From: Bacteroidales bacterium | GTDB taxonomy: Bacteria > Bacteroidota > Bacteroidia > Bacteroidales > UBA3663 | Direction of reading: 5' to 3' | DNA: 64,000 nt | Assembly (NCBI GenBank): GCA_017618715.1 | Contig: JAFZTS010000079.1 | Span: 1 to 64,000, forward strand | Shown here: piece by piece, positions 2,597 to 3,873 of the stretch | Layout: every line of letters begins with the position of its first letter | Position numbering within the stretch: the stretch's first letter is position 1 | Program-made: the position numbers and the translations under genes | Notes under the pieces: model-generated | What the model saw: only the letters and a program-made list of their open reading frames with translations | The model's database searches: none | Told to the model about the DNA's origin: nothing

Positions 2597-3412
2597 TTAC
2601 AAGCAGGGGAGGGCGCGGAGGTGCGCCTCGATGGTCTTGCCGAGGCGGATATGTCCGGCATTGTTGGGATGCAGGCGGTCGTAGCGCACAGTCTCGGGCT
2701 TCGCCTCGGGTTGCGCGAAATACACGCCATGCTCAGGTTCCATCGGGAAGAGGCCGGAGTCCTGATACAGGTCGATGCAAGGCACGGCCCAATATTGGCA
2801 AGCCTGGCGCAGCACGTCCATGTATTCCTCGATATAGTGGCCCAGAACGTTGGTGAAGTCCTCGTCGGGCTGCACATTGAACCGGTTGTTGGCAGGGTCG
2901 CTGAAGTTGGCGTAAGCGCGGTGGATGGGCGTCATGACGATGATCTGCTTGGTCGGATAGTTGTGCTTCAGCCAAGAGAGGCACATGTTGATACGACCAC
3001 AGAAGGTAGTGTCGTTCATGCACCATTCGCGATGACGGGCGGCTACCATCTTGCCATTGCGGTTGCAGATGGTGTCGCGTTCGGTGAAGAACTTTCCGAT
3101 GGGTACGCCATGATTGTAGTCGTTGGTGCCTGCCCAGATGAAGATGGCGTCGATGGTGGTGCTGTCGGTCTGCTGCATCAGTTTGGCTTTCTCGAGTATC
3201 TGGTGCCATTGGTGACCGCTGCGGGCATAGACACGCGGCTCGATGCCGAGCGAATCGCGCAGATAATCGTAGTAATGGTAATCGGCAGCCGTGTTGTTGG
3301 GGTCGGTCATCGAATCACCCAGGAAGGCGCAACGCTTGCCTTGCCACTGTGCCATGCACGTCATCGGCAGAAGGCATGCAATCAGGGCCATGGTATAAAG
3401 AAATTTTCTCAT
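2597..3412 (-). CDS. SGNH/GDSL-family hydrolase, secreted
   Basis: A 271-residue protein with a signal peptide (MRKFLYTMALIACLLPMTCMA). It has block I GDSM with nucleophile S34, block III GTND, and block V DRLHPN carrying the catalytic Asp and His. Such enzymes are esterases or acetylhydrolases acting on glycans or lipids; the substrate is unknown. A start ten codons further upstream is possible, but MRKFLYT begins the signal peptide directly. A consensus promoter lies ~370 bases upstream at 3780-3811, so the mRNA would have an unusually long leader holding the hairpin element at 3482-3726. Confidence 0.8.
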   Translation of the reverse strand: MRKFLYTMALIACLLPMTCMAQWQGKRCAFLGDSMTDPNNTAADYHYYDYLRDSLGIEPRVYARSGHQWHQILEKAKLMQQTDSTTIDAIFIWAGTNDYNHGVPIGKFFTERDTICNRNGKMVAARHREWCMNDTTFCGRINMCLSWLKHNYPTKQIIVMTPIHRAYANFSDPANNRFNVQPDEDFTNVLGHYIEEYMDVLRQACQYWAVPCIDLYQDSGLFPMEPEHGVYFAQPEAKPETVRYDRLHPNNAGHIRLGKTIEAHLRALPCL

Positions 3413-3481
3413 TTCAAGTGCCGTCTTTTTGTTGTTATTCAATGTGCGCTTCTATATAAGAAATGTTTTCATTGATATTTT

Positions 3482-3726
3482 GGTGAAAATGGCCTCGTCT
3501 CTCGCTTCAATAGCGGAGACTTGGCCGGAAAATTTGCTGCCCCAATGGCAGCAGAAAATTGCACTTCGTGCAAAAAATCCTTCGGGTCGAGCGGCTCGAG
3601 ATGAATCTTTATTGTTTGCGGGCCGGATGGATTTTTTGCGATAGCAATTTTGTGCAGGTATTGGACCTGCTCATTTTCCGGCAGCCCGGCTCGGCTATTG
3701 ATGCCAGAGCCGCTGCCATTTTCACC
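3482..3726. repeat. Inverted pair of hairpin-rich elements, 98-99 bp arms
   Basis: This fills most of a 500-base stretch with no credible gene. The ends are perfect inverted repeats (GGTGAAAATGGC at 3482-3493, its complement at 3715-3726). Each arm (3482-3580; 3629-3726) reads, from outside in, a stepped hairpin with loop TCAATA, a hairpin with loop CCAAT, and a small TTGC/GCAA hairpin ending in GCAAAAAATCC. The stems differ between arms by paired changes that keep pairing (GTCTC/GAGAC against GGCTC/GAGCC; CGC/GCG against GGC/GCC; TGCTGCC/GGCAGCA against GCAGGT/ACCTGC). The 48-bp centre has its own palindrome TCGAG-CGG-CTCGA. It resembles a BIME or MITE in layout, but I do not recognise the family. 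Short open frames in both directions do not translate consistently between arms. Confidence 0.85.
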
Positions 3727-3779
3727 TCCTTTTCTAGTTATTATCGCTTTCAGTTTTCGATAAGTTGAAATGGTCGCTG

Positions 3780-3811
3780 CAAAGATAGTGATTTAGTTTG
3801 CACGTTCCAAA
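3780..3811 (-). promoter_or_regulatory. Promoter reading leftward toward the SGNH gene
   Basis: On the minus strand: TTTG (3808-3811), a 20-base spacer, then TATCTTTG (3780-3787), an exact Bacteroidota primary-sigma promoter. An A-rich block ending in AAAAATTTGG lies just upstream, as at the tRNA-Leu promoter. Expected start of transcription is near 3773. Confidence 0.75.
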
Positions 3812-3839: not shown

Positions 3840-3873
3840 TAAAAAAAGCACCCTGTCGCGCGACAGAGTGCTT
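3840..3873 (-). terminator. Intrinsic terminator after the GH2 gene
   Basis: Hairpin GCAC-c-CTGTCGCGCGACAG-a-GTGC followed by a run of T on the minus strand. It lies ~40 bases beyond the stop of the leftward GH2 gene and closes the first utilisation locus. Confidence 0.85.

Follow-up and report, generated by a model that had tools for sequence, protein, structure and literature searches.

Non-autonomous elements of the IS200/IS605 type leave no target duplication, insert in a fixed orientation beside a short target word and carry hairpins at their ends. The attachment sites of CTnDOT share a TAnnTTTGC-like word. Short palindromic repeats that occur in inverted pairs form a further group, in which a GTAG or CGTC tag at the foot of the hairpin defines the REPs, and REP dimers show an unexplained preference for unlike partners (PMC3733652). 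Within the Bacteroidales, the BrickBuilt MITE of Porphyromonas gingivalis is present in 19 copies and is built with leader and tail units (PMC4596501).

The locus described below lies in a 64,000-nt stretch of a contig from an uncultured rumen Bacteroidales genome (the window) and carries a 328-bp unit that we designate X. It belongs to a genuine, genus-level family of mobile palindromes that is, as far as we have searched, previously undescribed. The first-pass annotation of the window had compared its central part to a BIME or MITE; this was right in kind, X being a dispersed inverted hairpin repeat, and missed the larger unit inserted at the start of transcription. Like REPs, BIMEs and REPINs, X has short hairpins in inverted pairs, a high copy number, a mosaic order and differing dimer partners (PMC3733652). 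It differs from them in that each arm has three hairpins connected by GAAAAT linkers and lacks a GTAG/CGTC tag, in that we found neither a dedicated Y1 gene for it nor a RAYT gene flanked by arms of its core (A), and in that the core often sits at promoter starts within an orientation-locked unit. With Correia (NEMIS) and ERIC elements, X shares an intergenic location near genes, MITE-like inverted repeats, a broadly similar size and, by prediction, entry into transcripts, but it is set apart by a single orientation, a single distance to the -7 box, exchangeable interiors and no constant target duplication at the junctions compared. BrickBuilt resembles X as a Bacteroidales intergenic repeat with leader and tail units; it differs in its 23-nt tandem repeats and its own promoter activity, and its abstract mentions no arms with covarying hairpins (PMC4596501).

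The features of the locus are collected in Table 1. X is short, non-coding and multicopy with inverted termini, as is typical of a MITE, and no conserved reading frame was found in it among the copies compared. Its core consists of two arms of 98-99 bp facing each other around a 48-bp centre, with three hairpins per arm in the same order and with TCAATA loops in HP1 and CCAAT loops in HP2, just as first annotated. A-rich linkers (GTGAAAATGG, CCGGAAAAT, AAAATTGC and AAAATCC) separate the hairpins and are complementary between the arms. The stem exchanges reported earlier, GTCTC/GAGAC versus GGCTC/GAGCC and CGC/GCG versus GGC/GCC, are both present; in the stem with the CCAAT loop, however, the annotation had counted five or so changed pairs, and there are three of six (GCTGCC/GGCAGC versus GCAGGT/ACCTGC). 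The span originally assigned to the element (3482-3726) holds as the core, but the true unit is larger by comparison with empty sites. As AGCG is present at both of its junctions, its end points could each shift by as many as 4 bases. Many copies have a leader of the form TAtMTTTGCAGCGNCCATTTCGACAAATCGAAAACAAA...AAAAGGAG ahead of the core and ...TTGTTATATAGAAG after it.

Table 1. Positions of X, its parts and the neighbouring promoter and gene in the window.
Feature	Position	Strand	Remark
Whole inserted unit X (328 bp)	3450..3777	-	between TATCTTTGCA and GCGCACATTG; empty site in two 95%-identical relatives
X left end / leader, GCGACCATTTCAACTTATCGAAAAC...AAAAGGAG	3727..3777	-	common to many copies and three insert types
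Promoter-proximal arm of core A (HP1, HP2, HP3)	3629..3726	-	
HP1, type b, loop region TCAATA	3680..3717	-	
HP2, GCAGGT-CCAAT-ACCTGC	3654..3670	-	
HP3, GCTATCGC	3638..3645	-	
Centre between arms, 48 bp	3581..3628	.	varies between copies (not conserved)
Gene-proximal arm of core A (HP1', HP2', HP3')	3482..3580	+	inverted versus the other arm
HP1', type a (GTCTC TCGC TTCAATA GCG GAGAC)	3491..3526	+	
HP2', GCTGCC-CCAAT-GGCAGC	3536..3552	+	
HP3', GCACTTCGTGC	3561..3571	+	
X right end, AAAATATCAATGAAAACATTTCTTATATAGAA	3450..3481	-	common right end TTGTTATATAGAAG in many copies; junction by empty-site comparison
Promoter -7 box TATCTTTG of the GDSL gene	3780..3787	-	native, outside X; unchanged in empty sites; TAnnTTTG consensus
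-33 box TTTG of the GDSL promoter	3808-3811	-	20-base spacer to -7 box
Reading frame, presumably GDSL/SGNH-esterase-like, downstream of the promoter	2597..3412 (ATG 3412-3410)	-	native leader resumes at 3449

Downstream of the promoter lies a reading frame for a putative GDSL/SGNH-esterase-like protein. Where the window reads TATCTTTGCA-GCGACCATTTC...[core]...CTTATATAGAA-GCGCACATTGAATAACAAC, the same locus is uninterrupted (TATCTTTGCAGCGCACATTGAATAACAAC) in genomes G005 and G007, which are 95% identical to the window here. X is also absent at the GDSL gene in three further species (G003, G004 and G011). Given the exact empty site in two relatives, comparison of the assembled sequences establishes X as an insertion that immediately follows the -7 box TATCTTTGCA on its 3' side, runs in the direction of transcription and precedes the GDSL-esterase-like gene. 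The empty sites have no leader, which ruled out an ancient native 5' UTR as its origin at the site in the window. Insertion polymorphism with an empty site, another property of MITEs, was found at other loci as well: in the window's own genome (G000), site C18 is filled and the same site is empty in G005, G003 and G004, site C65 is filled and empty in G003 and G011, and two loci carry an insert in G004 and none in G000.

TAnnTTTG is the -7 box of Bacteroidota promoters (PMC7366714), and the empty/filled pairs that could be resolved place the insertion directly after TTTGCA. TAnnTTTGC occurs at most 130 nt upstream in 24 of 58 distinct paired copies (about 1% expected), a fraction that may be somewhat high, the 58 being loci obtained partly from core searches and partly from a query with TTTGCAGCG, which biases site counts towards promoters. 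The -7 box and the core (GTGAAAATGG) are 50-54 nt apart in 14 of 15 copies, and in the main class the right end is found 37 nt beyond the core. In none of the 58 copies did the leader, promoter or right end stand in the opposite orientation, a result unaffected by the query bias. About 17 of the 58 A cores occur in other contexts, without leader or promoter, and therefore A may be mobile alone and X a composite. The bases shared between junctions are AGCG at the window site and AG or A elsewhere; the right junction varies, and the search for a target-site duplication suggested by the first-pass annotation found no constant one.

In G000, 30 matches to the whole core and 27 to one arm were obtained, and DNA searches of G003, G005, G007 and G011 gave 25-40 each; these are matches, not insertions, and several are possible per insertion. 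The repeat is thus dispersed in its own genome, with further copies in related species. An arm-model search returned 22-75 arms per genome in these four other copy-rich species; the first such model (R1) caught no more than 9 base pairs, owing to misalignment of the HP1 types, and served solely to locate arms. The genus has nine other members, which had no match or one marginal match, and G004 has two A arms only, but 51 leader matches. The A-core family was found in some members of a single uncultured rumen Bacteroidales genus and nowhere else: in 393 genomes of the order, a conserved 28-bp stretch of the element did not occur outside this genus, and those records with a name that contain the element are uncultured rumen Prevotellaceae/Bacteroidales assemblies. 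Collections of phage, plasmid and viral sequences yielded no relatives of the element; five viral contigs match an SD-like 18-mer, none with an arm. All genomes are draft assemblies, which palindromes break, and contigs often end in or beside these palindromes (for example C62, C83 and C75 of G000, C31 and C55 of G007), so that the counts given here probably fall short of the real copy number.

One frame holds three different interiors: A, the core in the window; B (GGTCGCTTCGCTC...GAGCGAAGCGACC); and C, in G004. At promoters that are orthologous between species (sites 1-3), one species has A where another has B, and at site 1 of G007 a scrap of A remains behind B. Tandem X units also occur, sharing GCG at the junction, and the tandem junction TATAGAAGCGACC fits a form with joined ends. 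Family B was seen in the leader frame at L184, L187 and L193 of G000 and at L219, L224, L230 and L231 of G004, with a nested hairpin ACGGACT...AGTCCGT in some copies. Family C (AAAGTTTTCGTTGATTTCG...CCGAAAA...) was seen at L218, L225 and L226 of G004, with as many as three units in tandem ahead of a single gene. At L004, L044 and L213, a recurring insert (about TCATTGTCTATATGCGGCTAAGGCCGTCCCCATGAATGGGGCCCCTTCC) lies within the HP1 loop of the core.

The core is strongly folded, with z of -7.6 and -8.7 as RNA for the two strands and -9.7 as DNA, and no shuffle was as good. Across 47 distinct HP2 sequences, 277 of 281 pairs are Watson-Crick, 2 are G-T and 1 is A-C. All six HP2 pairs change on both sides among 24 distinct 17-mers, in which 97.9% of cells are paired versus 55% in shuffles; the covariation score is 1.09 versus 0.24, a value reached by 0 of 500 shuffles. 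Throughout these stem changes, the loops (YCAAT) and linkers (GAAAAT) stay constant. The first-pass annotation had staked its proposal on a second genomic copy and on covariation among homologues; the element proved multicopy and the covariation held over many copies. Its further step, from compensatory change to selection on the fold, gains no support from the pair counts: G-T equals A-C in HP1 (19 versus 17 among 831 pairs), and HP2 and HP3 contain hardly any wobble pairs. Selection on RNA should leave an excess of G-T over A-C on the transcript strand, and its absence makes the DNA level likelier. Judging by these pair counts, the palindromes are more likely to be maintained or renewed as DNA than by RNA selection.

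The two arms of one copy also tend not to match. Among 37 copies with both arms readable, the same type occupies both arms in 0 cases for HP1, 0 for the HP2 stem and 1 for HP3, against 3.5, 4.0 and 5.4 expected with right arms shuffled (P 0.018, 0.004 and 0.005; P 0.002, 0.0002 and 0.005 with arms drawn from a common pool), P values that are too optimistic as the copies are related, and near-perfect palindromes, which short-read assembly would lose, bear on the count. Read structurally, hairpins of the same sequence could pair with each other between the arms, whereas unlike ones would force local hairpins and four-way junctions.

Replication template switching makes multibase compensatory changes and can both create and repair palindromic stems (PMC8794818), and since it can give paired changes, it weakens the view that covariation proves selection on a fold. 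We regard it as possible, though not the favoured reading, that the covariation is a mutational by-product of such switching and requires no selection on the fold, which would be compatible with insertion and mobility of X. The nearly perfect stems, the discrete types, the scarcity of wobble intermediates in HP2 (2 G-T of 281 pairs) and the described multibase changes (PMC8794818) are all consistent with it; template switching alone, however, predicts neither constant YCAAT loops and GAAAAT linkers beside changing stems nor the avoidance of the same stem by opposite arms.

It is unlikely that X is instead a regulatory 5' UTR RNA of riboswitch- or attenuator-like kind, kept by selection on the RNA fold and spread by recombination together with leaders. 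Such an RNA would be in keeping with leader copies in one orientation behind a promoter, with the strong fold and with the SD-like start AAAAGGAGGTGAAAATGG in the stem base of many leader copies. But the pairs show no RNA signature, G-T being as rare a mismatch as A-C, the place of A can be taken by B or C, palindromes unrelated to it (by B in orthologous genes too), and the genes downstream are diverse. The short frame after the SD-like site is unconserved (for example MDLRRGLQ-stop in type c), and a conserved leader peptide was rejected on the same grounds, with differing frames and an early stop in type c. The element has no Rfam match at the gathering threshold, a scan of the window finding only a tRNA.

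We consider X to be, quite probably, a mobile element of REP/MITE-like kind that is non-autonomous and orientation-locked, has the -7 boxes of promoters as its target and is moved in trans. A recombinase or transposase would recognise TTTGCA of the -7 box together with ends of the form GC(G/A)NCC...TATAGAA, and insertion would be strand-specific, without a constant target duplication. The orientation lock, the short target word and the absence of a constant duplication fit two candidate movers, a transposase of the single-strand (HUH) class or a site-specific recombinase acting via a circle. The core itself most likely acts as DNA: the linkers common to both arms would pair with each other, and the hairpins, nearly always unlike between the arms, would each fold on their own, so that a stack of three four-way junctions results. 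More tentatively, a recombinase might use the sigma -7 box as its target, landing at +1 with the promoter kept, and recognise a three-junction DNA ladder whose opposite hairpins must differ so that they cannot pair across. If so, the element would always land at +1 and the promoter would keep working.

The TTTGCA target word and the single orientation of X fit the IS200/IS605 type, with AGCG, AG or A shared at the junctions, whereas most carrier genomes, which are incomplete, are without a detected Y1 transposase. CTnDOT-type tyrosine recombinase elements of Bacteroides are large and conjugative, unlike X. A recombinase of that type might be the mover; no integrase was linked to X, and the open-access literature gave no confirming match for the CTnDOT attachment word.

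The proposal that X is a GTAG- or CGTC-type REP or BIME, mobilised by a RAYT (the Y1 transposase associated with REPs), we judge improbable, a shade more so than the RNA explanation. Inverted hairpin pairs with differing stems, the heterodimer preference known for REPs (PMC3733652) and the existence of Y1 genes in G007 and G011 speak for it. The foot of the hairpin, however, has neither tag, Y1 transposase (PF01797) was undetected in G000, G003, G004 and G005 (genomes 78-90% complete), and in G007 and G011 the repeats beside the Y1 gene are GGGTGTAACCCCCG-like, not A arms; with most carriers lacking a detected gene and the genes found having other flanking repeats, Y1/RAYT was rejected as the mover. 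The Y1/RAYT-like transposase of 151 aa lies at the same locus in both genomes (L302 1402-1857, minus strand, C61 of G007; L300 1486-1941, plus strand, C76 of G011), has its own GGGTGTAACCCCCG and GCCCTGAAAGGGC hairpins and stands behind an X-like leader in G007. No gene-carrying copy that could represent an autonomous relative with matching ends was present among the fetched copies from these incomplete genomes, and the associated transposase that the annotation proposed to seek was not found. That the two arms delimit an invertible promoter switch (phase variation) is very improbable: inverted arms do surround a centre and such promoters are known in Bacteroidales (e.g. PMC8748976), but no TAnnTTTG box occurs in the centre, the promoter being located beyond the arms, each of the three hairpins differs from one arm to the other, and leader copies are orientation-locked.

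Leader-type copies of X lie immediately 3' of the -7 box and without exception run with transcription, which leaves the promoter intact and should make X part of the 5' UTR. The transcript would gain about 330 extra, very stable 5' bases, a placement that rests on motifs. By analogy, a long folded 5' UTR may be open to RNase III cleavage or attenuation, probably as a side effect. Correia elements lie just downstream of the gonococcal mtrCDE promoter and are cut by RNase III (review PMC10969869), the nearest tested parallel to the effect expected of X. Between a GH2-type gene and the GDSL promoter of the window, a near-perfect palindrome (AAGCACCCTGTCGCGCGACAGAGTGCTT, 3846-3873) is followed by a T run on the minus strand and looks terminator-like.

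Even covariation of the textbook sort, seen inside a single locus, can have its origin in the DNA, which calls for caution in reading it. The rule that opposite hairpins differ offers a testable case of the heterodimer preference of REPs (PMC3733652). If the reading of X as a mobile element holds, a family that targets the promoter -7 box would supply new, strongly folded 5' UTRs to many genes while leaving their promoters unbroken, and would be a route to the rewiring of expression in rumen Bacteroidales.
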